Assembly: GCF_036370855.1 (NCBI RefSeq)
Contig: NC_088111.1
Span: 18,697,501 to 18,761,500, forward strand
Direction of reading: 5' to 3'
DNA from: Dromaius novaehollandiae
Lineage: Eukaryota; Chordata; Aves; Casuariiformes; Dromaiidae
DNA: 64,000 bases
The translations under genes were made by a program, and so were the position numbers. Each line of letters begins with the position of its first letter. Positions within the stretch are counted from its first letter, which is position 1. Positions 1,948 to 64,000 of this stretch are shown in pieces. The notes under the pieces are model-generated. The model searched no databases. It was not told the DNA's origin and was given only the letters and a program-made list of their open reading frames with translations.

Positions 1948-2094
1948 TTCTCCCTCGGGTTGCTGTCTGCAGATTTCAGTGCAATGGTCAACAACCCCCA
2001 CTTAAGTGATGTCCAGTTTCAGGTGGACTCTGGGGAAGTCCTTTATGCCCACATGTGTGTGTTGTATGCACGGTGTCCTCGGGCTGTTCAAATT
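1948..2094 (+). CDS. SLX4 exon: N-terminal half of BTB domain
   Basis: The exon encodes 49 codons in phase 0, including MVNNPHLSDVQFQVDSGEVL and YAHMCVLYARCP, the typical start of the SLX4 BTB fold, which mediates SLX4 dimerisation. The donor is GTAAGT. The acceptor could be the AG at 1946-1947 or an AG slightly downstream, so the first dozen residues are uncertain. The cysteine in AHMCVLYARCP replaces a bulkier residue that I recall in human (AHKFVLYARCP). Confidence 0.9.
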
Positions 2095-5000
2095 GTAAGT
2101 ACTGCTGATACACTTTTCTCTTCTGCTCCAGTAAGGTCCTGTTTGCAGTAATGGGCATTTGACCAGCTCTTCCAGACCGACCACACCTAAATCGGCTAGT
2201 GCTGCTGCAGAATCAGCACAGAGTATTTTGGGGTCTAATGACAAGTGACTCTGGACCTGCAGTGATTTTTCAGCTTTTCACTTTGCCAGAATCCTGACAA
2301 ATTGGTGGAAAATGTGGTAATTTGTCCTGGGAGACAAGGAGGAGATGAGGATCCTTCCTTGCATTCTGCCCATGAGCAGTGGAGGAATTTTTCTAAGTGC
2401 GTCTTGCCCTTGAATTTTTGTACCTGTGCAAGTGCAGACTGCCCTGTCCTTCTTGGTATGTCCTGCCTTTCTTCCAGGCTGACAAGTTTGACTGTGGAGT
2501 AGAGAGTTTCTGGGCTGTGCTTGTAAATAACCCACACAGAGGTTTTGTCACTCCCACAGTTGCTGTGGAAGTAGCTGCACTGAACTGTGCTTTTGGCAAG
2601 GCCAGTGAAGTAGTTCTTATGTTCCCAGAAGCATTCTGGGTCAAACCGTGCCCAGCCTGCTCCTATGCAATCTCCTGTGAAGGCAATGAAAGGCAGTGAG
2701 CCGAAGAGGGGAACTCTGCTCTCTGACAGAGCTGCCGCCAGCCCGTACAACCAACTTCTTGACCAAGTTTTGTCTTTCTTAAAAGCTGCCTTTTTGTAAT
2801 CAGTGGAATTAGTTTTGTCCTCATGCACGATTGCAGTAGTTTCTACTCAAGGTGCCTCGGGCCATTTCTAAGGGGTCCATGAAAGCTGACAAAAAAAAGC
2901 CAGTATATACACGCCATCCTGCAGTCTTAATGTGAAATTTCTTAAGGGATCCTCACCACCGGTAGAAAGTGTGTCCACAGATCAAAGGAGTTTAAAAAAC
3001 ACTGAGTTGTCCAGGTTCTCTTATTATTTCCTTGGAACTTAATCTGACTTCAGCATTCCCATCAACCGCTTTTCATGCGCAGGAATCATTTGCGTGGATA
3101 GGGCTGTGCGATTGACTCTGTACTGTATTTTTGATTCCTGCAGAGGGCTGTTTTCGTCCTGCAGTCCCCTCTGCAGAGCAGCGTTTCGCATTTATTTTCT
3201 GCATAGGTGAGGGAGTGCTCTATTTGTCAAAGCTTTTGGATAACAAGGGGACAGAAATTAGTTAGCAACGGCTTTGGAGCTCATGTTTTCTGTTTGCATG
3301 ACATGCCCTAACTTTGGAGAGAGATTTTCAGATAGTGTATTAGGTGTGCTGGGTACAGAGGGAGTGAGAGCTCACTATACTGGAGAAGCATTTTCAGCAA
3401 AATCTGAGATGAAGGTGGACCAACACAGATAATGGCCAAGTTCAAGGGAGGGTTATTTGGTATGGTATCTCTTTTCCTGTGACACAGCAGAACTAGATTT
3501 TCAGCAGTGCATCGAGGGTAGGTAAATTCAAAACAGATCAAAAGAAGTTCTCCTGTAAGTGAGGTGTAGATATCTGTGGAATTTCTGCTCTAGGAAGTAA
3601 CTGGATTCGATTCCAAAACTGACTGGAGAACTCTAAGACCATCTTTTATGTGTGTGACTAATACAGATGACTACTCAGACCTTTATGCTTCAGGGTACAA
3701 GCTAACAGCTGTAGGGTCAGGAAGGGAATGGCCCGTTCCATTAAGAAGCTCTGCATATCCAGTCGTTTTAGCTTCCCTCTGAGGCATCAGATCCTGGCCC
3801 CAGGATAAGACTTTGGCAAACGAAAGCAGTAAACTGATACAGAGAAGATACTGGTGTTGCTGTTCCTTTACCAGCAAGTGGACCTTGTTTGCTTTCCTCT
3901 TACCCTCAGGTTCACAACGAAGGGTTCTTAGTGGAAGAGGATGGGAATGCGCAGACACGCCGTGTGCTGCTGAGCGATGTGACAGAAGAGGCAGCCTGTG
4001 CATTCCTGCAATACCTTTACACTGCTGATGCTGACATCCCTGCCAGGATGCTGCCCCAGGTGGGGGCTCTGGCTGCCAGGTTTGTATCATATGAGTGTGT
4101 TTTGGATCGCCTCATGCTTTCAGCCACATGCACTCTAACCCGATGTCTTCTGTTGTGGTTTGAGTGGCTTCAACAGAACTCATAGTCCTCTGCTTGCATT
4201 TTAAGTGAAATTTGAACACAAGAGCATCCTACCCTCATCTTTTTCATGAATCTGTCTTCAGGTTACATCTGCTTGAGATTTTCTGGTTTTGGTTTATGGC
4301 TAGTACACTTTTGCCAAGAGTTTTGTCTCAGGGTCTTTCATGACAGCTGATGATGAGTGTGTGATTCTCAAGGCATTGCACTAGTGACACACGGAACAAG
4401 ACTTGCAGAATGTAGTGGATGCATGGAACGCTAATTTGTTATGTCAGTCATGATCCTAGACACTTGTCAGTCATGATCCTAGACATGTGCTAGGTAAAGA
4501 GCTTGAAACAGGAGAAGGTGAAAGACATTCTATCAGATCAAAATCACTCTTAGTTCTGGAAATGTAGGTGTCGTCCTTTTAAAGTTACTCTGAAAAAGAC
4601 CAGAGAGAAAACATATTTTTTCTCTGTGCATTTATCTTGATAGTCACTTGATCAGCTCTCCTTGATTAGGCATGAGTTTATCCTCTGTAGTGGTAGGAAT
4701 ACATTGTTTTGAAGGGAAAAAATAAATGTGAAACCTGAGAAGATTATGGTGGCATGGAGAGAAAACCTGAAATTGTTATTGACTTGTTTTTATTAATGAG
4801 CGAACTGCATGTCTAATTTGGCACAACACATTCACAAATTAAGTTTAACTTTTTACTCCTAGCGAGAAGTGGGGAAACTATGGGGAAACAGAACAGACTG
4901 TGGGTGGGAGATAGCGTCTAGCTAAATAGATTTGCATGATTGTACTCTGCACGTGTAGTGTGTCGAACATACTGGGTAGACTGGATTAAGTATCTGTCCT

Positions 5001-8000
5001 TAATAAAAGATCTTAGTTCTAAGTCCAGGCCCTTGATAGCAATGACATTAAGGATTTTTTGCTGGTGGAGTGTCTGCAGTGAGCCTGCTGGCTTCTGTTT
5101 TGCTGAAGAGCTGCTCAAACACAAGACTTTAGAATTAAAGGACCCTATGGAAGAGGAAGAAACCAACAAAATTGTAAATGGGATCTTGTTTCTTGAGTGG
5201 GCGGTGATTTACCTCTTAGTTTCATGGCAATTCAGGATTTTTAACTGAAGTCAGGTGGGCTGCATCTGTGCTGTTACTGAGTCGATGTACCCTCTGCTTT
5301 AAACCACGATCCCTGTGCCCTAGCTGTTCTCACAGAGGTGAAGCACAGCTAGTAGTTTTCTTGGCAACAATTTCAGGTACAAGTTAGAGGACAGTCTGCA
5401 CTGGGATCCACATTAACTTTTGTATTATATTCTTGCAGGTTTGGTGTAGGGGAACTGATGGCCAAGTGTGAAAACAGCACTGGAGAGAGCCAGGTGTCTT
5501 CTGGAGTGGATTCAGAAGACTTGTCTGAACAAGAAGAGAAAATGCAGAGTATAAATAGGTGCAAAAATGTGAATGCCGCACAAGTTTTGTCATCACCGCT
5601 CATCAGAACTCGGGATGTTGCAGTTCAGGGCAAAATAGAGGCTGATGTTATTGTTATATCTTCTGATGATGAAATGGAGTTAGAACAAGAGAAGAAGTCA
5701 TCAGAGTCAGGCTGTCCCCTGAAGGAAATGGAAATCCCCAGGCAGCTGAAATGTGCTGATGTTATTGTTATATCTTCTGATGATGAAATGGAGTTAGAAC
5801 AAGAGAAGAAGTCATCAGAGTCAGGCTGTCCCCTGAAGGAAATGGAAATCCCCAGGCAGCTGAAATGTCCTGATGTTATTGTTATATCTTCTGATGATGA
5901 AACGGAGTTAGAACAAGGTCCTGAGATACCAAAACCTGAACATAACTCATCATCAGTCACTGAAACAAAGCAGAGATCATCCCAGGTCTCATGTGGCGTT
6001 ACAGATGCAGTACATGCAGCAGATAACAGTGTGACTGAGATAAAGGACAGTGAAAAAGAAAGAAGTCTAGTTTCTGTGAGTAGTGGCTCGCTTGGTGATG
6101 AGCCCCCGATCCCTGTTGATGACGGCTGGCATGCTGAATATCTGTCACCAGTCAGAGGTGACAGCTGGAACACCAGCCGGGTTAGCCATGCAAGTGCCAG
6201 CACTGCCAGTAGCCCCAGATCTGACTTCTGGCCTGACCAGTGGGAGAGCCCAGTCCAAGCACAGGGAATTAAGGACAGTACCCCTCTTCGAGGAAGTCCT
6301 CGTGACAGAACAACAACTTTGCTTCACCTTGATGAATGTGCCTCAACAGGACTCTTTTCAGAGGGCAGTAGCCTAAGTGGCCGGAACTCCAAGTTCTGGG
6401 ATGACTTGGATAAAGAAGAAGAGGAGGAAGAACTCCCAGTGATGCTTCATCTGATTCAGAATGTGTCAGCTGCAGCAGGTGCCTGTCAGACAGAGCCTGT
6501 AAAGACTCCTGGTGAGAGCCTTTTTCAGTACTAGATTCATTGAACTGGGTTAAATCGTTGTCATTTTAGGTGATCGTCCTGTTTGTTGTTCACCTGGTAT
6601 ATTGAGAGGGTATTTTGGCCTTCTGATCCAAAGTAGTCAGGGCCAGGCACAAAGAAGGTACAGTCAGCTTCTGATGTGGGAGAGAGTGCTTCTAAGTACG
6701 TGGCATTGTTGGAGCATAGCCATTTGCGTTTCATTCATGCTGGTTCTTTGACAGTGATAGTATTCACTGTAGAAATTATGAGAGGTTACCTGGAGGAAAA
6801 ACAAAACAAAACCCAGCCTTCAACTTGCATGCTAGGGAATGTTTATTCCTTGCAACAATGGGTCTTTTGTTTTCCATGCATTCATAAATTGACGTATGTG
6901 CTAACATTTACATGAAGACATCAGGTGAGCTTTGCACTCAGTGGCAGAGGTGCAGAGGCTGGCTGGGGGTAGGTGCCTACGCCTGCCCATGGGTAGGCTC
7001 CATGCATGGTTTCCTGCAAAGCTCTCCTGATGTGCCTTTGCCTTGACTTGTGCTGCTTTCTGTTTGCTGGTTCTGGGCTCTTGTAACAGATTTTTGTGTG
7101 CCCATCACATGTCCTGAGTGGGGGACACAGTGAGCGGTTACAGGGCGCACATAAGACCGAGAGCCAAGGTGCTCTTTGTCTTTGCCACCAGATTCCACTT
7201 AGTGGTGAGCAGGAGCTGAGCCTTCTCCACTTGAATGTCTGACAATGCACAAAATACTGACATACCTCTCTGGGGTCAACTGCTTACTGGGATTAATGTT
7301 TTAATTGTGTTGCACTTGCATAGTTCCTTCCATCTAAGATCTAAGAATAGTAATTGATCTCTTAGTATCTATTAGATATATTATTAATTATACTGTACTG
7401 AGTGATCAGTTTAACAACAGGGGTTTAGAACATGACCTATAAGACCAACTGTGCTTCACAGTATCAGTAAGTCAGTATCACTAAATCAGTACCTAATTCA
7501 GGCCCCCAGAATCTTGATTTGTTTGGTTTCTTCTGCATCAAGTCTCTACTATGAAATTTCCTTCCTGGTGGAATTTCACAGAATTCCGTAAGCATTTTAA
7601 CTTTTTAACTACCTTGCAACTGTTCTAACAAAGCCTTGAATGGGCTTCCTATTCAGACCTGAGATATATCTTGATTTAAGCTGTTTTCTCGTTTAAAGTC
7701 AATGAAAAACAAGTATCCCGGACCAAAAGGAGACAAAAGCGTTGATTGTTCTGTCCAATATAAAGGTATTTAGTAGAAGAGCTTGCAGACAAGCAGTGCC
7801 TCTTAAACAGTTACTATATAACATCAGAATATCTGCCACCAGGAGGGGAAGATATCCGCCCTCTTATGTCCTTCTGTACTAATTCTGATGACAATAATTT
7901 CATTCTGTTGCAGGACCTGCCTGTCAGGAGAGGGACAAACCGCCTGAGACTCCCATGACACCAATGCCAGCTTGCTCCACCATGGAGACCCCAGAGCTGA

Positions 8001-9791
8001 AGGAGGAGTTGAGCAGGTTAGCATTACTTCTGCAAGTACATCTCTTTATGAGCAGAAACCTGCTGGCAGGTAGTGTGAAAGAAAGCTCCTGCGCTGAAAG
8101 GGGAAACTTGATGATGTTCCAGTCAGTGTTGTTTGAGATCACGTCATGTTCTTCCAGCTGGCCACTGGACTTCCTGGCCTGGTCACACTCCTGAGCTGTG
8201 ACAGTGGAAGGTGCAGCATTATCTTAGCCTAAACTCCCACCTTTCTCTTCTAGATCTAAAGTTCCTCCTTTCCCAAAAGACCAGATGTTGTTAAAGCTGA
8301 AGAAGGCACTCCGAAAGATGCGTCTGAGCATGGAAGCTGCCTTGAAGAATGAAATCCCATCTTCCCATCCTCCCTTGCAGAAGTCCCCAGCCAAACGCTC
8401 TAGGCAGTTGGATGCTGACTTGGAGGATGAAATCCCGTCTTCCCGTCCTCACTTGCAGAAGTCCCCGGCCAAACGCTCTAGGCAGTTGAAGACAGACGAG
8501 ACTGCAGGTAGAAAGCGTGCCAAAGTCTCAAATGCTGTGAGGAAAAAGAAGCAGGCTGTTGCAACTTCCTCAGTGCTCGCTGTGGGGAGTGCTGGTGATC
8601 ACTTGGTTGGACGCCCTGAAAGAGGCTATGCAGGAGCTAAGGCCAGAATTGAAACGACATATCAGTCCAGACAAGCCAGAGAGCAAAAGAGGTCAACCGT
8701 ATCTCCAGAGAGGGGCTCTCTGGCAGCTGATGATGAGGAGCTGATGCTCTCAGCATCTCAGGAATCTTCAGCTTCTTCACTGGATGGAAGCGACATCTCT
8801 TTTGAGTTACAGAGGTAGGGGAGCAAAATACTAACAGAAGAGTCTCTCTACTGTGCAAGACAGAGGTTAGCTGGGAAAATGGGAAACAAAGAAATGAGTG
8901 TCAATGCAGAATACAGGGGTCTGTACTACAGCCTACCTTCCCTGGGCTTTTATCACTTGAAGGTCAATATGGTCATATGAAAGTAGTAAGGTTTTTTATT
9001 GTTTGTTTGTTTTAGTCTAAATCCTAGTGAGCTATTCTGAGGGCTCAGAAGTGCTCATGGCTGAAACTGCGTGTGGGTAGAGCCCAAACTTGGCATGTCC
9101 TGGCAGCTCTGCAAGTCAGAGTGCCAAGGAGCCTCACAGGATTGGGTGAGAGCCTCCAACTTAGAGTAGTGAGAAGACAGCACTGCTCAGCAGAGGCTGC
9201 ATGTGGTGCTGCACACAGCAAGCCTGCAAGTATGCCAGCAGTAGGTGCTGCAGGCAGGAGCAAGAAATGGCAGACAGCACAGGACCAGCACTGTCATGGC
9301 TGGGATGTGTAAGTTTGCAGAACACATACCATATTCTGCCTCGCTCCTTATTTTGTGAGTGCTGGTATTAGAGGGACTTGGGGAGCTGTTGGATATGCCC
9401 TTGATGACCATTTCTTTCCTTGATCGCTTGTCTACTTTTTCTCGCTTCTAGTTCTTTTGCCAATGAATTTGAGGCCTGTGGTGTTGTGTCTGAAGAGGAG
9501 GAGGAAGAGGAGCTTCCACCTTCTCAGGCAGCTGCCCAGGAGGCAGATAAGCTGGAGGCAGTGAGGAACTACATCCGTTCAAATCCAGATCTGTACCACA
9601 AAATCCTCTTCTATGAGCCGCTTGATCTGGCTGTACTGCACTCAGAGCTGAAACAGAAAGGCATTAAGATTTCCAAGGCAAATCTGCAGGACTTTTTAGA
9701 TGCTCAGTGTATCACCTTTACCACAGCTGCAGCCCGAAAAGAGAAGGAACAGAAAGGAAAGGGGAACAAAAAACAGATGAGACGATACTGA
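1948..9791 (+). CDS. SLX4 structure-specific endonuclease subunit, 3' part (6 exons)
   Basis: SLX4 is the nuclear scaffold that holds SLX1, MUS81-EME1 and XPF-ERCC1 for Holliday-junction resolution and crosslink repair. Exons seen: 1948-2094, 3910-4079, 5439-6511, 7914-8016, 8254-8814 and 9452-9791. All have GT-AG borders, and the phases add to 798 codons including the stop. Domain order is a BTB domain (first two exons and the start of the third), three repeated SUMO-interaction motifs, a conserved block PPIPVDDGWHAEYLSPV, the SAP-like MUS81-binding region (TPMPACSTMETPELKEEL, then KDQMLLKLKK), and the C-terminal SLX1-binding domain ending CITFTTAAARKEK plus a basic tail. The N-terminal half (UBZ fingers, XPF-binding region) is outside the window. 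From the BTB domain to the end it is clearly shorter than the human protein as I remember it (roughly 1,150 residues). Identification is firm; exon 1 could start slightly differently. Confidence 0.95.
2095..3909 (+). other. SLX4 intron within the BTB domain
   Basis: The intron splits the BTB domain. No transposon is recognised. A 197-codon open frame on the minus strand (2235-2828) is listed separately. Confidence 0.7.
2235..2828 (-). other. 197-codon antisense ORF of unknown meaning
   Basis: This is the longest open frame in the SLX4 introns, on the opposite strand, starting at an ATG. Its product would have a hydrophobic stretch (WLYGLAAALSES, FGSLPFIAFTGDCIGAGW) and scattered cysteines, with a basic tail. 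I do not recognise any family. DNA at this base composition should rarely stay open for so long, but no promoter or homologous domain is visible. It may be chance, an unannotated exon, or a remnant of an inserted sequence. Confidence 0.15.
3910..4079 (+). CDS. SLX4 exon: C-terminal half of BTB domain
   Basis: The exon encodes VHNEGFLVEEDGNAQTRRVL, LSDVTEEAACAFLQYLYTAD and ALAAR, matching the human SLX4 BTB order closely (RVLLGDVSTEAARTFLHYLYTAD). It ends in phase 2, so that AG joins the next exon's G to make the arginine of the conserved RFGV motif. Confidence 0.93.
4080..5438 (+). other. SLX4 intron with a 23-bp tandem duplication
   Basis: The intron lies between the BTB exons and the large SIM exon. 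A short direct repeat (two copies, period 23, at 4443-4488, containing GTCAGTCATGATCCTAGACA) is the only structured element I see. Confidence 0.65.
5439..6511 (+). CDS. SLX4 large exon with triplicated SUMO-interaction motifs
   Basis: This 1,073-bp exon starts by completing the BTB domain (FGVGELMAKCE). An acidic, serine-rich, probably disordered stretch follows, with three copies of DVIVISSDDE, a textbook hydrophobic-plus-acidic SUMO-interaction motif. It then carries the conserved segment DEPPIPVDDGWHAEYLSPVR and a second acidic run. Human SLX4 also has SIMs at the equivalent place (VILLLDSDEE), which bind SUMO and bring SLX4 to damage sites and telomeres. The long acidic region that follows the BTB domain in human is much reduced here. 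Confidence 0.92.
5641..5918 (+). repeat. 114-bp in-frame tandem repeat (SIM array)
   Basis: Two full copies (5641-5754 and 5755-5868) read as identical base for base. A third partial copy (5869 to about 5918) differs at a few positions. The unit is exactly 38 codons, so copy-number change keeps the frame. Each unit begins with the SUMO-interaction motif DVIVISSDDE and continues with a lysine/glutamate stretch and a PRQLKC segment. Identity between the two full copies points to very recent duplication or gene conversion. Confidence 0.93.
6512..7913 (+). other. SLX4 intron
   Basis: The intron runs between the SIM exon and the short SAP-region exon. I see no recognisable repeat or gene in it. 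Confidence 0.6.
7914..8016 (+). CDS. SLX4 exon: start of the MUS81-binding SAP-like region
   Basis: A 103-bp exon encodes PETPMTPMPACSTMETPELK and EELSR, matching the human ITPMPQYSIMETPVLKKEL block just before the SAP motif that binds MUS81. Phase 1 in and phase 2 out fit both neighbours. Confidence 0.9.
8254..8814 (+). CDS. SLX4 exon: SAP helix and basic linker
   Basis: The exon begins SKVPPFPKDQMLLKLKKALR, matching the human sequence around LPKRQMVLKLKEIF (second half of the SAP motif). A basic, serine/proline-rich linker contains a 26-codon tandem duplication, and the exon ends with ASQESSASSLDGSDISFELQ, close to the human ASQESVATSVDGSDSS. Replacement of the human FGVRPLP by SKVPPFP suggests that the loop before the second SAP helix has diverged. 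Confidence 0.9.
8333..8488 (+). repeat. 78-bp in-frame tandem duplication in SLX4
   Basis: Two 26-codon copies (8333-8410 and 8411-8488) share EIPSS, LQKSPAKRSRQL and flanks with about a dozen differences. They are therefore older than the SIM duplication in the same gene. Each copy supplies a basic KSPAKRSR cluster that could act as a nuclear-localisation or phosphorylated SP site. Confidence 0.88.
8815..9451 (+). other. Last SLX4 intron
   Basis: This 0.6-kb intron holds no recognisable element. The acceptor, CTCGCTTCTAG, is well formed. Confidence 0.6.
9452..9791 (+). CDS. SLX4 terminal exon: SLX1-binding C-terminal domain
   Basis: This exon encodes the conserved C-terminal helical domain that binds and activates the SLX1 nuclease: an acidic run, then AVRNYIRSNPDLYHKILFYE, ALHSELKQKGIKISK-like helices, FLDAQCITFTTAAARKEK and a lysine/arginine tail ending RRY. 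Human has YIRSKPALYQKVLLYQPFEL and FLDTHCITFTTAATRREK at the same place. The domain is intact and the stop is at 9789-9791. Confidence 0.96.
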
Positions 9792-17059: not shown

Positions 17060-23751
<6,692 letters not shown>

Positions 23752-32910: not shown

Positions 32911-35900
32911 GTGAGTCCTGCTGGCCCTGTCTTACAACATGGCACAGATCCCATCCTGGGCAAGACAGGAAAGTCCCCAGGCAAGAGAGTGAACCTTTTC
33001 CTCATCTGTAAAGGAGTGAGTGACACTAATAGGTGACTGAAATGGGTGTGTTGCCAAATCCAGTTTCTATGTAGTAAAGTCCACAGGAAAGGTGGGAGGG
33101 ATGGGAAAGAAGCCTCTGGCTGAGGTTCACAACAGGGAGCTGCTTCCCTGTCTGTGCCATTGAATTCACATTTCAGAAATGCTTTGACCATTTGGCAATC
33201 ATGTTTATCCCTTCTTGGCCAAGGTTAGCCAGCCTTTCATGGCTTGCTGGACAGTGTCTCATGTGATAGCAGCTACTTACTTTGAAAAATGACTTGAGAG
33301 GTGAACTCTGCTCTAGTGAGCTGCATCTCTTGCCTTTGCAGAATACCCAAAGGTTTATGCAAGAATCTCTTCCCCAGACACTAGTTTAAAAGACAAATTC
33401 AAACACTGGTAAAATCAAGTTCTATAATCTCCTTACTCTGTTATGTCCCTCTGTAGCCTTTGTAATGTCTGTGGGACTGAACTGAAAAGTGGATGTGGAA
33501 CTGCTTGAATAAGCTGAGGCAAGAACCTGGCTGGCTGGGCCTGGGGCTGCTCAGCACTTGAGGGGAATATGTCATTGCATCTGTTCCTACAGAGACTGGA
33601 ACTGATGCTATAACATGATGTCTTAAACAACAGTTATTTCACGTATTCCTTCAAAGGTACAAGAGTTGTTCAACTGTACATCCATACAATGAATAGCTGT
33701 GTGCAGGTGAACATGGTGTACTTGGTTTTTTCCCCATGCACTTGCTGAAATATGCTCTAAAAGCAAAAGCTTCAGATTTGAAAATGGGTGAGAGCAGGGT
33801 GCTTCTCAAAATGCCTAGATAGGCTAGTTGACATGAGTCTAGTGTTCAAAGTCCATTTTCACAATTAATGTGAACACACCATCGACAGCAAGCCACAGTC
33901 AAGAGAACTATGTAAGCTGTGATGTGGCATAATCTCATGTGAGTGTAGGTGTTGGTAACTCTGTGCCAAACTCCAGGTAGGTGCAGTGGCTGTAGTCAGA
34001 GGTCTTAGGAGAACTTATAGAAATCTCCCAAAGCAGTGTAATTTAAGACAAACAAGCTTTTCAAAGATGGTGTTGTCCTGTTTCATCATTTGGATTCCAT
34101 CTCTCCCCAGCAGTTGACCATCCTTGATACCCTGATCATAAAAGCCAAGGTCTTGCCTGTGTGTGCATCTGCTGCTGTGTGAGCCTTTCTCCCTCTCCAG
34201 GATGAGTGCCAGCAAGGCTCCTGTGCCCTTTACCACTGCCCCTGTGGTGGCTCTTGATATGATCAAGGCCTCCTTTGATGTTATTGTTGAGGCTTGTATG
34301 GATGAGCAGCAAAAGTAATGGTCCAAGGATCAAAGGATCCTTGGCAATTGCTTCAGCATTCTGCATCTGAGCCCCTGGTAAGCACCAAGCCTCTTAAATG
34401 GCAAGTGTGGTTGGCAGATGAGTACCTGCATGTGCAGAAGGAGCCTCTGACTGCTGCTGTCCTGTTGCTTCTTCCTGATGCCAGTTCTAGCCTGTGGGCC
34501 TGGCCTTATGTCTCCCTGAGAGCTTCTGGCAACCATGTGAGGTGCCTGGGACAGGCTGCCTGTCCCTGTGTGCCCACTCCAAACTGTGCCTGAGATTGAG
34601 GGAGCAGGGGGTCCTCAAAGTACAGCAGAGACCAACTTGGTGCTGCACATGAAAGTTTGCTGGAGCTCTCTTGTTTTGCCTGCAGTCCCACCGACCTCTC
34701 AGAGCTGCTGAAGGAGGGGACGAAGGAATCCCATGATCGTGCAGAGAACTGTCAGTTTGTCAAAGACTTTCTGAAAGGAAAGATCAAGAAGGAGCTTTTC
34801 AAGGTGAGTGCTGCTCTGCTTTCTTGATGGAGAAGCCCTTTGCTGACATATCTGATGACTGATGCAGACTGAAGACTTACTGAAGCTGAGCACCACTGGG
34901 GTGTGTGTGTGTGTGTTGAGGGTGGGTTTCTAGCAGTCAAAACTCGTCAGGGGATCCCATGCAGTGTGTCCTGCAGCTGAGAACCAGGATGGTGAGGAGC
35001 ATGCTGGCCTAGCACAGGTTAGCTTTAGGTGTAGGTGCTAGGCTTCTGGCTGCACATCTGCTGACTGCTCAAGGATGGGCAGCTGTGGCTGCAGTAAAGA
35101 TACTGGTGGCATGAGCAGTCTCAAAGGGATAAAATCCTGGCTGGCTTATGGTGCTAATTCAAACCCCTGGAGATTGGTCTTGCTTTCACAGCTGTCAGGT
35201 CATATTGCTATTTAATCTGTACAGAAGAGATGGGATTTTTGGGTCTGAGCAGCACTGTCTGATCCTGAAGGTCTTGGGCCATATGCAGTAGTCTCCTATG
35301 GCACTAGAGTATTGGTGCTACTTGTACCTCTTGGGTGAACTCAGTCCCTGTGCCTTGCTCTCAAGCTGATAGAAGGCCCAGAGCATGCAGACAGCAATGT
35401 CAGACCAGTAATTCTCAGCCCATGCTCTGTAGGCGATGTTGTTATGGAACTAGGTGGAGAAGAGCCTCTGGTCCTTTGGGCGATACAGGTTTGCTATGGG
35501 CTCTCCAGGCTGGTTTTGCGCAGAGCCCTGGGGTTTCCTCTCTGTGGACCCAAACTCCATACTGGGGAGGAGTAGTCCCAGGGCACAGAAGGTGTGATGT
35601 ACAGATTGAGTGAGTTAACTTCTCATGTTAGCTGTGCTTTGTCTGCAGCTGGCTACTGTGGCACTCTACTTCACGTACTCTGCTCTGGAAGAGGAAATGG
35701 ATCGCAATAAAGACAACCCAGTCTTTGCCCCTCTGTATTTCCCTCTAGAGCTCCATCGGAGAGAAGCATTGGTCAGAGATGTAGAATATTTGTATGGAGA
35801 AGACTGGAAAGAGAAGATCCAGTATTCAGAAGCAACTAAGCATTATGTGGACAGAATCCGTCACGTGGGGCAGCATGAGCCAGAGTTGCTAGTGGCCCAT

Positions 35901-37557
35901 GCTTATGTACGCTACATGGGGGACCTCTCAGGTGGCCAGGTGCTGAAGAAGGTAGCCCAGAGGGCCCTGAAGCTGCCCAGTACTGAGGAAGGGATCCAAT
36001 TCTATGTATTTGAAAACATTTCCAATGCACAACAGTTCAAGCAGCTCTACAGAGCAAGGATGAATGTTCTGGACTTGGACAAGAACACTAAGGAAAGGAT
36101 TGTGGAAGAAGCCAACAGGGCCTTTGGACTTAACCTACAGGTACTAAATCCCTTGAGTCACTATACCTGTAGGTGCTGCTACACCAGCTCCTGGGCCCAG
36201 GTTAATGCAGTCAAACTGCTTATCTGGGAAAAGTGGTTTGGGTCTGAGACCACCAGAGTCCCCTTCACTGGGGGGCAGCAGGATTCTGCCTTTGTCTTGT
36301 GTGGGATTCTGGTCTGAATAGCTCTTTCTTTTGCTACCTTCTGGACACCTGACAAGTATTGGGCAGAAATTCCTCTCCACACACCAATGCTATACCTGAG
36401 CCTTTGATTTGGACTGAACTGAGACATCCTGGACTGCAAAATTCCCATGGGCTGGGTGGCTCTAAAGCAATGGCAAGAGCAGAGCTCTCACTGTGAGACA
36501 GTTTCAAACCACTTTAGCCTAGATGCCTGCTCTTGTGCTGTCATCTTAACAATGCCCCTTCCTGGTTATAGTGTATCTCCTGTCTCACCTGGTGATCTGA
36601 GATTTTGCCCAGTGGGCCAAAAGGTCTGTAGCCCATGGCCTCTGTTTCTTCCCATACTACCTTTATCTTGCATGAAATGACTGAGCTGTTTCCTGCTCTG
36701 GGAGGAGGGGCACAGTCTCAGTTACTGGACTGAAGTTTTAATCTGTGCCTATAGCAGGTCTTTGTGGTTTAAGCTGGTCAGAAATGTGATGGGGGTGTAG
36801 TAGGCTGCTCTGTGTCAGGATCCTTACAGAAGCCCCCGGCAGTGAAGCTGGAGGGGGCTGCTCCTGTGAACAGGAGCAGCGATTTCCTAGAGAAGGTCTG
36901 GCAGCAGGGAAACAAGAGCTCATTGCCTCATCTTGCATCCACAGCAGCCTGGAAGGCAAGCAGCAGGGCCATGCCATGTCTGTCTCCTGGGCACAGAGGT
37001 CTAACCTGAGATGCTCCTTGTATGGGCTGTGCCTTTGCAGAGGCCTAGCGTGTGCTAGCTCTCACCAGGTGTCTGCCTGCAAGGCTTTCTGAAGTAGAAG
37101 CAATTGCTCTGCTTGCTGTCTGGGTGGCTGGAGGTAGAAATGACTTCCTGTTCTCCAGATCTTCCACTGATCTGAGTGAAAGCTGTGTAGCTTTGCCTGC
37201 CTCATGCACTCACTGTGACTACTTTCAGATATTTGATGAATTGGACAAGATTGGCATGTCACTAACAGAAGAAGCCCAAGATGGAAGCATCCCAGTCCAT
37301 GATGGAAAAGGAGACCTACGCAAATGCCCTTACTATGCAGACAAACTGGGTAGGTTTGGGGCAATGACAGAGTTGCCAATCCTTTGCTCTATCTATGCTG
37401 CAGCACTAATGGCACTTTCTGTGTTCTAGCTGGCAAGGCAGGACCTGGCTGTCCCTATCACGCTGCCATGACCTTGGCGAAGCAGCCGCTAGTGCAGCTG
37501 ATCCTCGCAGCTTGTGTTGCTGTGGCCGCAGGAGCTGCAGCATGGTACGTAATGTGA
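32828..37557 (+). CDS. Heme oxygenase 2 (complete, 5 coding exons)
   Basis: This is the constitutive, ER-anchored enzyme that degrades heme to biliverdin, CO and iron with electrons from cytochrome P450 reductase. Exons: 32,828-32,910, 34,686-34,803, 35,649-36,140, 37,229-37,349 and 37,430-37,557, in frame, 313 residues (human HMOX2 is 316). The proximal heme ligand is His44 ([12 protein letters not shown]), the distal-helix motif GDLSGG is at 158-163, and a C-terminal membrane anchor spans about 292-313. Two Cys-Pro heme-regulatory motifs (KCPYY, Cys264; GCPYH, Cys279) distinguish HMOX2 from HMOX1. The Cys-Pro that human has near residue 127 is absent. An in-frame ATG four codons downstream is an alternative start. 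Confidence 0.97.
34686..34803 (+). CDS. HMOX2 exon with proximal heme ligand
   Basis: The exon encodes [20 protein letters not shown] and [16 protein letters not shown]. The histidine in SHDRAE is the axial heme ligand. The exon is conserved almost residue for residue with human HMOX2. Confidence 0.96.
35649..36140 (+). CDS. HMOX2 main catalytic exon
   Basis: The 164-codon exon covers most of the all-helical heme-oxygenase fold: [55 protein letters not shown] and the [19 protein letters not shown] helices. The flexible distal-helix glycines are present. Confidence 0.97.
37229..37349 (+). CDS. HMOX2 exon with first heme-regulatory motif
   Basis: The exon encodes [38 protein letters not shown]. 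The Cys-Pro in RKCPYY corresponds to human Cys265, part of the thiol/disulfide redox switch with the second motif in the next exon. Confidence 0.95.
37430..37557 (+). CDS. HMOX2 terminal exon: second HRM and membrane anchor
   Basis: The exon encodes [14 protein letters not shown] (second Cys-Pro motif) and then a 20-residue hydrophobic alanine/valine-rich tail anchor ending WYVM, equivalent to the human anchor ending WYYM. Confidence 0.95.
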
Positions 37558-41057: not shown

Positions 41058-43582
41058 CTGGAGCAGAGGGAGATGCAAAGAGCCGTGAGCCTGAGCACCC
41101 CAGAGCCAGTCCACGGTTTGGGGTAGCGCCAGGGCCAGAGGGGTTGAGTGGTGAGTACGTGCCTCTGGGAGGCCACCATGGCCTGCTCTGCTGTGAAAGG
41201 CAGCACAAAGCATCCTGCCCCTTGCAACCATGCTGCTGTTGTTGCAAGGGTAAGTACAGACTGATGGAGGTTGGAAGGGGCCTTTAGAGCGCATCTAGTC
41301 CAACCCTGCCCAAGCAGGGTCACCCAGAGCAAGTTACCCAGGACCCTGTCCAGACTGTTTTTTAGTAGCTGTCTCCAAGGATGGAGATGCCACAGCCTCT
41401 CTAGGCAGCCCATTCAGTCAGCCTCACAGGAAAAAGAAAAAAAAAAAAAGTTTTTTTTTTTTTCTTCCTTATAGTCAGACAGAACGTCCAATGTTTCAGT
41501 TTGTGCCCATTGCCGCTCATTCTGTTGCTGGGCACCACTGAGATGAGTCTGGCCTTGTCCTCTTTACACCCCTTCATCAGATACTTGTACACATTGATAA
41601 GCCCCCCCACCCAAGCCTTCTTGTCTCCAGGCTGAACAGTCCCAGCTCGCTCAGCCTTTCCTCGCACGGGAGCCGCTCCAGTCCCTTCATCCTTCTAGTA
41701 GCCCTTTGCTGGATTCGCTCCAGTAATCCTGAAACACGTTGAGGGAGGGGAAAGCCTGGTGAGAAACACGAGGGATGAGCCCTAGCCTACCTCCACCACA
41801 GGAGCAAGGGTCTGGGACAAATGCCCCTTCCCCTCCAGCAGTCCCCATCCCTGCCAGCCCTTGGCTGCAAGGAGAGGAGAGACCGCGGCACGCTGCAGCT
41901 CCGTCTTGGTGCGGTAGGGCAGACGGCTCCTGCGCTGAGGCCCGCTGAGCCCAGTGGCTCCACAGCTGGCTGGCAGCCCTTGAGGTGCCACCATCACTTC
42001 CCCACACCGGAGACCAGCCTAGGAAGCCACATGCAGTCCCAGTAATGGTTCAGCACACATGGCAGCCCCACCAGCCCTCGCAAGCGCCATGGGCTGGGGA
42101 GACGTCTCTCCCCCCCCCACCCCCGGCCATGCCCAACAGCTTGGCCAGCTCTGCACAGTGCAGCCACAGGGCCACCGGGGCCTGGTGCAGAGCGAGAACG
42201 GCTGCAGGGCGGCTGTCATCAGCTGGCCGGGGGGGGGGGGGGGGGCGGGGAGGGCCCCAGCCCTCCGCTCGCAGCACCTACCCGACGAAGCAGCAGAGGA
42301 AGCCGAGAAGGAAGCTCATGAACCCGATCTCGTAGGTGACCTTGGTGGTGATGGCTTGCTGGCAGTGGGGACACACCGTCTGCACCGGGGCGCCCTGGAA
42401 GATCTCTCCCTGCAGCACGGTCACCGTGGTGGTGGCAGTCCCCGACGGGACAAGCACGGTCGCTGTGTGGCCGCCAGGAGCGGGGTAGTGGCCCGGGGCA
42501 GGGTGGTAGCCCATGGGCGGGTAAGGCCCCGGGTGCGGGTAAAAACCGGCTGTGAACGAGAGATGGGCACAGGTGACAACCTCCGTGCGGGGCAGGAGAG
42601 GCCAGATGCTCACCCTGGTGCCGCACCACGGCCTTGTTTAAAGGCTTGGGGGCGGCCACCTCTGCCACGCGTCCTCCGCACGCGCGGTCCTGGCTGTCCC
42701 CTCTCCCCGAGGAGCCGGGCTGCAAGCCTCCAACAGCAGCCCCATCCCCTGGCCCTCGTCGCCCACCGCCGCTCCCGCCTGCGCCCAGCCCGCCCGTACT
42801 CACCAGGCGGCACGTAGGGCCCGGAGCTGTCTGTGGGCATGTGGGGGGGCACGAAGCCCGGCTGCGAGGGCGGCTCGTAGGGAGGGGGCCCAAATTCAGG
42901 CGGGGGGACGGGAACCCCCTGGGGCTGGCCCACGGCAGGGGCGACGCCATCTGAAAGGAAACCCAGAGTCAGCAGCCAGGGCAGGAGGCGGCAGCTGCTT
43001 GTGGGGAGACGGTGGCTAAGCTGAGCAGCCTGAGAAATGGGGAGGATGGGGGTGAGCACCGCAGGGAGGGGGACATACAGCACACGGGGACAGGGACGGG
43101 AGAGGGGTGAGGTGCCTCTGCGCCCAGCAGTGTCTCTAGGACACTCATGAGAACCAGCTGCCCAGCAGAGCAGCCCAGACTCTTGTCCCCAGGGTCACAA
43201 GAGCCCCAAATTGGCCACACGTTACCCCCAGCAGAGAGCAGAGCCAGGCTTTGGGTCGGGGACACTTCTCTCCTCTTGTCCCCCGGCCTCCCTGGAGAGC
43301 TATCGGGGAGGGCCAGAGCCGGCGTCCCAGCAGCCTCCCCAGCGTGCTGCACACGGCAGGGCAGAGCTGCAGGAACAGGCCGTGGCTGGGGCATTCCCAG
43401 GGAAACCGCGCGCTCCCTGCTCCAGCCCGCTCAGCAATGCCCCCCGGATCCGGCCGGAGCAGAGGGTCCCCCGTCGCGGAGGGTCCACCCCGGGTACCTG
43501 TCGCGGGGGGCGGGCCGTGCTTCTCTTCTATCAGCGGTGCCGAGGGGCCTCCCGGGTAGGGCGGCGGCGGGTCGTTTGACAT
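40946..43582 (-). CDS. CDIP1, cell death-inducing p53-target protein 1 (LITAF-like; complete)
   Basis: This endosomal/lysosomal membrane protein of the LITAF family is described as a pro-apoptotic p53 target. Exons on the minus strand: 43,582-43,498, 42,950-42,804, 42,549-42,282 and 41,057-40,946, in frame, 203 residues (human about 208). The N-terminus is proline-rich with two PPxY motifs (PPPPYPGG at 5-12; GPPPYEPP) and a PSAP late-domain-type motif (13-16). The C-terminus is the LITAF domain: CPHCQ zinc knuckle, a membrane-dipping hydrophobic stretch ([14 protein letters not shown] and CCCLIPC) and the second knuckle [15 protein letters not shown]. Almost every C-terminal residue matches human. 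It is convergent with HMOX2. Confidence 0.97.
41262..41745 (-). mobile_element. CR1 LINE 3' fragment
   Basis: The + strand reads TTGGAAGGGGCCTTTAGAG, TCTAGTCCAACCCTGCCC, CACCCAGAGCAAGTTACCCA, TTTCAGTTTGTGCCCATTGC, TCCAGGCTGAACAGTCCCAG and ends near CGCTCCAGTAATCC. This is the complement of the CR1 3' part, so the copy is 5'-truncated on the minus strand. A homopolymer pair A13/T13 (41,437-41,463) interrupts it. It resembles the 38.7-kb copy but is less complete at its 3' tip. Confidence 0.88.
42229..42245. repeat. G17 homopolymer near a CDIP1 splice donor
   Basis: There are seventeen consecutive G on the + strand, which is C17 in CDIP1 pre-mRNA, 36 bases inside the intron from the exon 3 donor at 42,281. 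The run is likely to vary in length and to be error-prone in sequencing. Confidence 0.9.
42282..42549 (-). CDS. CDIP1 exon 3: proline-rich end and first zinc knuckle
   Basis: The exon encodes [60 protein letters not shown] and the start of the membrane segment ([16 protein letters not shown]). Human has the same order. It ends in phase 2 before GTAGGT. Confidence 0.96.
42804..42950 (-). CDS. CDIP1 exon 2: proline-rich region
   Basis: The exon encodes [20 protein letters not shown], then [20 protein letters not shown] and YVPP. It contains the second PPxY motif, a candidate WW-domain (NEDD4-type ligase) site. The donor is GTGAGT and the acceptor CTTTCAG. Confidence 0.93.
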
Positions 43583-59879: not shown

Positions 59880-61660
59880 CGCTGCCTTGACAGGCAGCAG
59901 CATCGTCATCATCATCGTCGCTGTCCGTCCTGCCGGACAAAGGGAGCCGACGGGGCAGCTCCGGCCCAAGCCCACCTTCCCCGAGCAGCGATGACGGGAG
60001 GGCCGCGCGCTCGTGCCGGGGCCGGGCTCCCTCCTCGGCCGGGGACCTGGCGGGGCAACGGACCGCGGCTGCCTCTCCCTGCCGCCCTCCCCTCGGCCAG
60101 CGGGCAGCGGCGGCGGCCGGGCGCTCGCTTGCGGCGGGAGCCCTTCCTCCGGGCCAGCGCGCGGCCTGGCGCTTCGCCCCACCGAACGTCGCCCGCTGCC
60201 GCCGGCGCGTCCCCGTCCGTCCGTCCGTCCGTCCGTGCCGCCCGCGCTAGGGCGCCGCCAGCACCCCGCAGCCTGCGGCCACGGGCACGGCCATGGGCAC
60301 GGCCACGGGCGGGAGCGGAGCCTCCCCTCGGCCTGCGAGAAGCGGCTCCTCCACAGGGAGCCGCCGCCGGGGGGGGGCGGGGGGGAAGGTTCCCCGTTTT
60401 TTATGCGGTCGCGCCGATCCCGCGCCGCGTTTTACCCCCAAAGCTGCCGCCGCCCCCGGCCGCCGCCTCCCCCCGCCCGGGGCCAGGCGCCACCGCAGGC
60501 CCCGGCCCGCGCGGGCAGTCGGCCCGGCCCGGCCCGGCCTCCCCCGGCGCCGCCGCTCCCCGGGGCCGCCGGCGCGGAGGCCGCAGGCCCTGCCCGCCCC
60601 GGCCCCGGCCCCGGCCGCGAGAGGCCCCTACCGGCTGCCGGCTCCCGGCGGCGGCTGCGGCACCTGCCGCGGGGCGGAGCGGAGCGGCGCGGGGCCGGGC
60701 CGAGGCGGGGCCGAGGCGGGGCGGGCCCGGCCCCGCGGCCTGCTGGCACCGCCCACCGCCGCCCCGAGGCCGCAGGGGACCCCGCGCAGGCCCGAGGCCT
60801 CGGGGAGGGCCGCAGCCCGGGCCCGGCTCGCTCGCTGCCCCCCTCGCAGTAAAGCTACACTGCGGAAAGGGCCGCGGGTGCCGCGCAGGGCAGTGCCCGG
60901 CCTGGGCTCCCCGCTGCGTCGCCCCCTCCTCGCCTGCGCTCCCCGGGCGCGTGAGGCCGCAAGCGGGGCACCCCGGGCGGCAGCTCCCGTCCTTCCCCGC
61001 CCCGCTGCGCCCGCCCGCGCCCCACACTGCTCCGCCGGGCCTGGCCACGCGCCGGGCAGCCCCGCGGCCTCCTGGGGGGCCCGAGTCGGACAAGGCCCAG
61101 GCGAACCCCGGCATGAGGCTCCCGGGTGGCCCCGGCCGGGGCAGCGGCTCCCCTGGGTCACCGGCGCTGGGGAGGACTTAAAGCTGGGACACAAGTTGCC
61201 AGGGCCCGAGGGCTGCACGGGCGCCGGAGAGAGCGGCCACAGGCGGTTTCCGCCTGCCGCAGCAGGAGAGCAGCAACGCCGGTGCAGTACGATTACCCTC
61301 GCGGCATTCTGGGCACTGAGCCAGCGCTCTCCCGGGGACGCCTGGGCCCGGCCAGGCCCGCGCCAGGGCCCGTGGGTTGCCCCATCCCGCGCCGGGGGCA
61401 GAACGCCAGGGCCACCTCCCGGCAACGGCCGCTGTGACCTCAGCCCGCTGCCCCGGGCCGGGCGCCGCGGCAGGCAGAGCGGCCGTGGCCCTGCACCTCG
61501 CGGCCCGCCACGCCGCCCGGCTTTCCTGGCAACGCGCAGGAGCTCCTGGCGGGAGGCCAGCGGGAGCCGTGCCCCGCCAAGCCAGCCGTGACCGGGGCCG
61601 TGTTGTCGGCCATCCCTACGACAACGGGACCCGAGCGCTTCCGGCAGCCCAAAGAGACCA
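59880..61660. promoter_or_regulatory. CpG island, likely shared promoter of CDIP1 and C16orf96
   Basis: This is the strongest CpG island of the window, with many GGGGCGGGG/CCCCGCCCC boxes and a CCGT microsatellite. CDIP1 must start upstream of 43.6 kb on the minus strand and C16orf96 begins at 61,669 on the + strand, so a divergent promoter here is the simplest reading. The actual start sites are not visible. Confidence 0.6.
60213..60238. repeat. (CCGT)n microsatellite
   Basis: About six CCGT units are in tandem within the CpG island. Just downstream (about 60,276-60,310) a GGCCACGGGCAC/GGCCATGGGCAC 12-mer is repeated about three times. Confidence 0.85.
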
Positions 61661-61668
61661 AAGGCGAA

Positions 61669-62085
61669 ATGAGCTTCTCCATGACGCTGGCAGAGCTGGC
61701 GGACATCGCCATCGGCACGCCCGACGTTGGCAGCGTCAACTTCAACGCCCTCCACGTCCTGCTGCACGGCATCCTGGAGCACCTCCACCTGCGGGACGCC
61801 ACGGCGGAGGTCTCCGAGGACGAGAGGGAGCTTCTGAAGCCCGCCGCTGGCGTGGCCGTGGCGAAGGCTGCCGGGGCGACTGCCGAGGGGAAGAGCTGCT
61901 CCCTCTTCCACGAGATGCAGCAGCGGCTGGGGAGGGTTGAGAGCCAGCTGAGCCGCCTCAACGGGCCCCCGTCCACCGCGGAGCTGCTGGCCCACAGCCA
62001 GGCCCCAGGCAAGCCGGCCGCTGACATGTGGCAAATGATGCAGCTGAAGAAGAAGGTAGAAACGAATGAAGAGGGAGTGACAAAG
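61669..62085 (+). CDS. C16orf96-like protein, first coding exon (partial)
   Basis: The exon encodes 139 codons starting MSFSMTLAELADIAIG, VNFNALHVLLHGILEHLHL and ending VETNEEGVTK before GTGAGA. The human C16orf96 N-terminus has the same pattern (MSFSLTF, NFKALHLLLHGILEHIH, STAQLLEASQ, LRKMVEGNEEAMAK) as I remember it. The family is uncharacterised, coiled-coil-like, and related to QRICH2 through the DUF4795 domain, which lies further downstream and outside this window. The ATG at 61,669 is chosen because the human homology starts there (GAAATGA context). The frame is open further upstream but without similarity. The position right of CDIP1 on the opposite strand matches human. Confidence 0.88.
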
Positions 62086-64000
62086 GTGAGAAACCTGTCC
62101 TCTGGAGTGTCCCTGTGTCTGGTGACGCTGCAGGCCGGCCCATTGGCTCACTTATGTGCCATCTGGCCCAGCGTGCTGCCCTACGCAGTGTCCTGCCCTA
62201 CGTAATGACCTGCCCTACGCAGTGACCTGCCCACATGTGTATCCTCTCCCATAGTGCTGGGGAGGTCGCCGAAGCACTGAGGCGTGTTTTTGCACCCATG
62301 GTCTGGCTGACATGGGCCTAGCTCCTTCCCTGAGACTCATTAAAGAGTAGTATTTTAACACTGCTGCTGACCAAAGGTGGGTTTGGTCATTTCTCACCTG
62401 CCACGGAGGTTCTAGTGATATTTTCTCTTGAGATTTAGGTCCCTTGGGTCCCATCCTGCATCCCAGCAAGGGTCACTCTCCAGAGACCAGGCTCTGAGCA
62501 GGGCACTTTGCCGTACTCCGTCGCTGGGGGCCAGCGCCTGTCCCTCCCGTCCCCATCCTGTGCCTGTGCAGCCCCCGTGCTGGATACCCCAGCAGCTCCC
62601 TGCACTGGGCCTGGGACCTGGGGCTGGGATGGCGCTGGCTGGAGCACACAGCCCTCCACTCACCTGGCAGGGCCGTGGCGCCCAAAACGTGCTCCTTTTC
62701 TCACCTCTTCCCTGCGTTACTGTGAGCGGCTGAGCTGCGGGCGGCAGTGGTGGTGTCCCGCAGGCAGCTGTCCCCACGCCAAGTCAGGATCCCTTAGGAG
62801 ATGTTCACATGCCGCAGGTTCAATTTATTTGGCTGTCGATGTTTAGACTGTGAGTCAGAACTGTAACGTGTGAAAACAGCACTGTCCTCCTCACTCGAGC
62901 CACGGGTTGCAGCACAAAGATATCTCAGCTGCGGTCACTGTGCTCCCTGCCCGGCTTGGAGAGGGGCCGGAGTCCAGGCTGCTTTCTGCAGCGCCGGCTG
63001 GACTGCCGACTTCTCCGCAGGCCGCACGGGGCTGGCCTGGAGCAGAAAACCAAGACATCTTTTCATCTCTTCTGAGACCTGGGGCTGGTCCCATCTCACA
63101 TTTTCATGACCTTGGCTTTGAGAACAGCTATGGAGCAAAGGGGACAGCACTTTGCTGGGGTGAAGAGCCTGGAGCTGGGCTGCCGGTCCCCTTGGGCACC
63201 CTTTGTTTCTCTTTGGGAGAGCTGAGTGGGAGCTGCCCCACTCCTTCGGCATGGTCACGGGCTGGACAGACGTGGCCGATGCCATGGCAGCTGCTCTGGG
63301 ACTTACTCCTGTATCCCGGAGACACTCCTAAACCCGCGTCTTTGCCATGTGCTGCTCAGCCTCGCTTCTCTCCGCCAGCACGGCTGGGTAAGAGCATCTT
63401 GGCTGGGATAATCCTCCTCTGTGGACCCGGAGCCTGGTACAGACCCAGCAGCACAAGCTGAACCACAAATTGCTCGTGCAGCAAAGCCGGACACTGTCCG
63501 GGGGTGCAGGCTGGCGTCACACCGCAGCTGGCACGAGAAGCGCTTGCATGCCGCAGGGCAGGAGGCCTGATCCAAGCACTGCGGCAAGGCCACCCGAGCC
63601 TGCAAGGCTGCCCAAGCCCTGCGGCAGCCGCTTCCCCGTCACGCTAGCTCGGCGTGACCCCTTTCGTCAGCGTGACTGCAGGAGCTGGCCTGGCTGGTTT
63701 GGTTTCATGGAGGGATGGGTTTCAGCCAAAATGGGCCAGACCCCCCACAGACGATGGTGCAGGGTAGCAGCAGGAGATGCACAGGTTTGTGCATCAGTGC
63801 CTGCGGGAAGGAATCCCTTTGCAAAAGTGTTTTGGGGATCCTTTGTGGGCAGAGCCTTCTGCTGGGCTGCCTGTGCTTGGGAAGGACTTTGAACGTGCCA
63901 CCTCCTCGCGTGCGGACACTGGCAGAGCTCTGGCGTTAGCCTTCATCCCCCTCTCCTAGGCAGTGGGATCCCCTCCGTCCTGGGCGCTGTTCATCGCGCA
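62086..64000 (+). other. First intron of the C16orf96-like gene (incomplete)
   Basis: No second exon is recognised before the window ends. A short tandem repeat of CCTGCCCTACGCAGTGA-type units lies at about 62,173-62,232. Confidence 0.55.
62173..62232. repeat. 17-18-bp tandem repeat
   Basis: Three to four imperfect copies of TGCCCTACGCAGTGACC occur in tandem within the intron. Confidence 0.75.

Follow-up and report, generated by a model that had tools for sequence, protein, structure and literature searches.

A tandem array of candidate SUMO-interacting motifs in emu SLX4

SLX4 is a scaffold for three nucleases, and its SUMO-interacting motifs (SIMs) are needed for its localization to telomeres and damage sites (PMC8599992). 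SLX4 SIMs also help to target nucleases to stalled forks (PMC7610648). Within the window analyzed here, a stretch of 64,000 nucleotides of emu (Dromaius novaehollandiae) DNA, a 114-bp unit coding for a SIM-like peptide is repeated in tandem. Is this array a recent in-frame duplication of SIMs in SLX4, and what could it do to SUMO binding? Judged from the coding sequence, the array should change the number of SUMO-binding motifs in SLX4. If its copy number varies, the locus would offer a natural series of alleles that differ only in the count of near-identical, evenly spaced SIMs. With such a series, the influence of SIM valency on SUMO-chain binding and condensate formation could be tested directly in the native protein.

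The SLX4 gene and the 114-bp array

The window contains the 3′ part of the SLX4 gene on the plus strand. The open frame of the last exon matched the Pfam Slx4 domain (PF09494) with an E value of 4e-19 and 68.8 bits, against a cut-off of 24.8. This conserved C-terminal, SLX1-binding domain identifies the gene as SLX4, as the original prediction had it.

We modeled six SLX4 exons by eye, using AG/GT borders in the genomic sequence only. Joined together, they form one frame whose only stop is terminal. The first two exons (1973..2094 and 3910..4079) hold the putative first and second parts of the BTB domain. When the surrounding open frames were scanned singly and unspliced, both matches to Pfam BTB fell under the curated cut-off of 20.5 bits (frame 1948-2151, E 0.0091, 16.6 bits; frame 3838-4185, E 0.0023, 18.6 bits), and the two frames covered successive parts of the profile, 3-35 and 42-93. 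The third exon (5439..6511) is open throughout and holds the whole array; its acceptor reads TTGCAG before the first base, G, and its donor reads CCTG before GTGAG. The fourth exon (7914..8016) is presumed to be the start of the SAP region. The fifth (8254..8814) carries a second in-frame tandem duplication, and the last (9452..9791) encodes the Slx4 domain and the stop codon. Pfam scans of the array-exon frame and of frame 8228-8818 matched no family. Joined from 3910 to 9791, five exons give 748 amino acids free of internal stops. The UBZ4 and MLR domains of SLX4 are presumably encoded 5′ of the BTB exons, most likely ahead of the first base of the window.

Tandem Repeats Finder placed the array at 5641-5917 with a period of 114, 2.4 copies, 98% match, no indels and a score of 540. 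Base comparison gave the same units. Unit 1 (5641..5754, plus strand) consists of 38 codons and encodes the SIM ADVIVISSDDEMELEQ followed by the linker EKKSSESGCPLKEMEIPRQLKC. Unit 2 (5755..5868) matches unit 1 at every one of its 114 bases. The partial third unit (5869..5917) encodes the SIM PDVIVISSDDETELEQ, is identical to unit 2 at 47 of 49 bases and is followed by no detectable linker copy. Its two differences lie at positions 1 (GCT to CCT) and 35 (ATG to ACG) and are both nonsynonymous, A to P before the SIM core and M to T after it. The 30-base core is the same in all three copies. The array had been predicted at 5641..5918. The two identical units and the partial third were found as described, and the end moves one base earlier to 5917, where the similarity of unit 2 to the third copy stops (at position 50). 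The claim that the repeat is coding and keeps the frame holds, for 114 bp equal 38 codons inside the open exon.

The exact run of 114 bases was the longest in the window when the longest run for each period from 20 to 500 was compared. The next longest were 33 bases at period 228, from the same array, and 25 bases at period 84, from a zinc-finger array. In 20 mononucleotide shuffles the longest exact run was 11 to 15 bases. A chance origin of the 114-bp identity is excluded.

We searched both strands of the window for further copies of the 30-base core and found no other site with 8 or fewer mismatches and one site with 9. Diverged copies of the linker were rejected on both sides of the array. 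The downstream alignment score was reached by 172 of 500 DNA and 320 of 1000 protein shuffles, and the upstream score by 117 of 500 and 779 of 1000. In a collection of bacterial and archaeal contigs, which is uninformative on vertebrates, the array protein pattern matched 239 stretches, none of which was confirmed by tblastn, and the exact array DNA pattern matched none.

The encoded peptide and its surroundings

Each of the three copies encodes DVIVISSDDE. In a parallel SIM, a hydrophobic core of four residues precedes acidic or phosphorylatable ones (PMC12751080). The VIVI core and SSDDE tail of all three copies agree with this definition, with four V/I/L residues and then an acidic or phosphorylatable tail. 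Serines flanked by acidic residues are favorable targets of CK2 (PMC12751080).

We scanned the 748 residues with four SIM patterns: SIM-a, SIM-b, a reverse type and a loose hydrophobic type. SIM-a matched three times, always in the array; the mean in shuffled sequences was 0.171, and none of 1000 shuffles reached three. The predicted SIM-like nature of the repeated peptide is thus borne out at the level of the encoded sequence. SIM-b had no match in the 748 residues. The loose pattern gave seven matches, a number equaled by 94 of 1000 shuffles, and the reverse type gave one, EEELPVM, equaled by 150 of 1000. EEELPVM was therefore no better than chance as a reverse-type SIM. We make no claim for LVSV as a fourth SIM, since it fits the loose pattern only. 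With neither of these patterns enriched and SIM-b unmatched, additional weak SIMs are unsupported.

Searches against solved structures returned chance-level matches only, with a best E of 0.18 for the array exon and 2.8 for a 30-residue piece around unit 1. SIMs are short, so this result is no argument against them. The predicted structure of the array exon, a single-sequence model made with no alignment, had a mean pLDDT of 38.4, with 338 of 357 residues below 50. This lack of a confident fold is in line with disorder, for which it is weak evidence.

In the exon model, the first SIM core starts 70 residues past the BTB exon border (residue 127 against 56.7). The TRF2-binding motif (TBM), a human-type feature that may not define SLX4 outside mammals, has the consensus [YFH]xLxP. 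It is absent from the 748-residue fragment. Within the intron at 4080-5438, plus-strand stretches without a stop are at most 102 codons long, and its sole match to the consensus contains a stop codon. The solved BTB domain of human SLX4 spans residues 660-795 (PMC8599992), and residue 1090 of the human protein still lies between the TBM and SIM1 (PMC11143449). The human gap from BTB to SIM1 is therefore at least 295 residues, compared with 70 in the emu model, where it corresponds to the region 4080-5641. On this reading of the sequence, the TRF2 contact may be absent from this lineage, or an exon may be missing from the model.

Age and origin of the duplication

Each unit has about 23 synonymous sites, none of which changed between units 1 and 2. 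Recency or homogenization fits these unchanged sites better than selection at the protein level does. The identity is thus consistent with the original prediction of a young or homogenized duplication. The lack of any difference in 114 bases puts the 95% upper bound of divergence at 2.6%, or about 6.6 million years at an assumed rate of 2e-9 substitutions per site per year. The third copy, with 2 of 49 bases changed, may be older than the split between units 1 and 2; two changes make this difference weak. The youth and the variability proposed for the array are both read from one sequence.

Gene conversion would leave the same picture of identity. The three SIMs could form an old array whose copies were homogenized by concerted evolution, through gene conversion or recurrent unequal exchange. 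Two of the human SLX4 SIMs are spaced by about 43 residues and joined by a similar linker, which counts for this explanation, as does the small divergence of the emu third copy. It also agrees with the three SIMs of human SLX4 (PMC8599992). However, the identity of units 1 and 2 extends to all 114 bases, linker included, and the sequence after unit 3 showed no linker copy. We consider concerted evolution of an old array improbable. The human count bears as well on the word "multiplied" in the original prediction, which is to be read with care. The in-frame duplication is real, but with three SIMs present in human SLX4 as well, the overall number may be unchanged. The emu copies may stand in place of more diverged SIMs rather than next to them.

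Perfect identity of adjoining copies is also the expected look of a false duplication, in which unit 2 would be an assembly artefact copied in tandem from unit 1. However, the copy is exactly 38 codons long and keeps the frame, as a random error would do only about one time in three. The third copy, moreover, has its own differences. Units 1 and 3 differ and are therefore both independent of any false copying of unit 2, which leaves at least two SIM copies that such an error would not explain. An artefact is quite improbable in our estimation.

A second in-frame tandem duplication was found in the same gene at 8331..8486 on the plus strand by Tandem Repeats Finder and base comparison. It has two copies of 78 bp (26 codons), which differ at 8 of 78 bases. 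Its exon follows the one presumed to begin the SAP region, and the strict SIM patterns had no match in the duplication. Tandem copying in SLX4 is therefore not confined to SIMs, which favors a neutral component. The array could be a neutral in-frame minisatellite, real and recent, in which a disordered linker tolerates copies and an added SIM has no measurable effect. The composition of the surroundings, where 68% of 221 residues are D, E, K, R, S, P, Q, N, G or T, together with the exon's low-confidence predicted fold, would suit such tolerance. On the other hand, the duplicated segment is centered on a functional-type motif whose core is identical in three of three copies. The 9.3 synonymous sites available over 16 codons are too few for this identity to prove constraint. 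A purely neutral origin seems unlikely to us, though it deserves weight.

SIM valency and comparison with known systems

We prefer, and give an even chance to, the reading that a SIM-plus-linker unit in a probably disordered stretch of SLX4 was recently duplicated in tandem and in frame, and that this raises SUMO avidity. Unequal exchange or replication slippage between neighboring SIM copies would be the probable origin of the duplication. The predicted product has three near-identical parallel SIMs at 38-residue spacing near the putative BTB dimerization domain, and a BTB dimer, if formed here, would present six. SLX4 would then be likely to bind poly- or multi-SUMOylated partners with higher avidity. 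SUMO-dependent clustering would become easier, and recognition by each single SIM would be unaltered.

The array is real and amounts to a modest variation on a protein already known to carry several SIMs, and the meaning proposed for it is plausible. The SIMs of human SLX4 are not known to be identical to one another, in contrast to the near-identical copies on a strict 38-residue period in the emu. Human SLX4 has the order of BTB domain, SIMs and conserved C-terminal domain (PMC8599992, PMC11143449), and the emu model follows it with its putative BTB exons. SLX4 SIMs prefer SUMO-2/3 chains in vitro (PMC8599992). Multivalent SUMO:SIM contacts account for SLX4 condensates at least in part, and oligomerization acts as a multiplier of valency (PMC12751080).

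RNF4 likewise has several SIMs in one segment and binds SUMO chains by avidity (PMC3901395). Its chain recognition is set by the sequence and the spacing of its SIMs, of which four are putative and three functional, and their spacing is uneven (PMC3901395), whereas the SLX4 copies are near-identical and 38 residues apart. RNF4 SIMs are also described as closely spaced (PMC12751080), unlike those of the array. ZNF451 resembles the emu protein in having repeated SIMs in one region. However, it has just two, closely spaced, with a spacer that is critical for interaction and function (PMC12751080), compared with a spacing of 38 residues in the array. By analogy with chain-binding SLX4 SIMs, multivalent condensates and the spacing in RNF4, three equal SIMs should favor multi- or poly-SUMOylated partners. 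However, a single SIM often dominates (PMC12751080), so an added SLX4 copy may do little.

A wider proposal is that SLX4 SIMs turn over by tandem copying, with a strong SIM-plus-linker unit expanding and overwriting its diverged neighbors. In this lineage, SIM valency would then evolve fast, might be polymorphic, and would set how the repair nucleases are recruited and clustered in a SUMO-dependent way. We regard this as a long shot. Among the literature matches listed, judged by titles and abstract openings and with most subscription papers outside the scope, none dealt with the copy number of SIMs in the SLX4 of birds, which does not prove that no such paper exists.

Other genes and frames were seen in the rest of the window. 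Rfam at gathering thresholds gave no match in the window, and neither did a search for a pair of octamers typical of CR1 ends. Two open frames, 42219-42968 on the minus strand and 61438-62205 on the plus strand, matched no Pfam family at E 0.001; by eye we take them to resemble CDIP1 and C16orf96. Downstream of SLX4, an open frame at 22498-23751 encodes a C2H2 zinc-finger array (Pfam zf-C2H2, 1.8e-70), in which 10 stretches pass E 0.001. At 35619-36317 an open frame encodes heme oxygenase (Pfam, 1.4e-67), and its best solved match is heme oxygenase 2 (E 8.3e-85). Its position close to SLX4 presumably differs from the human gene order.
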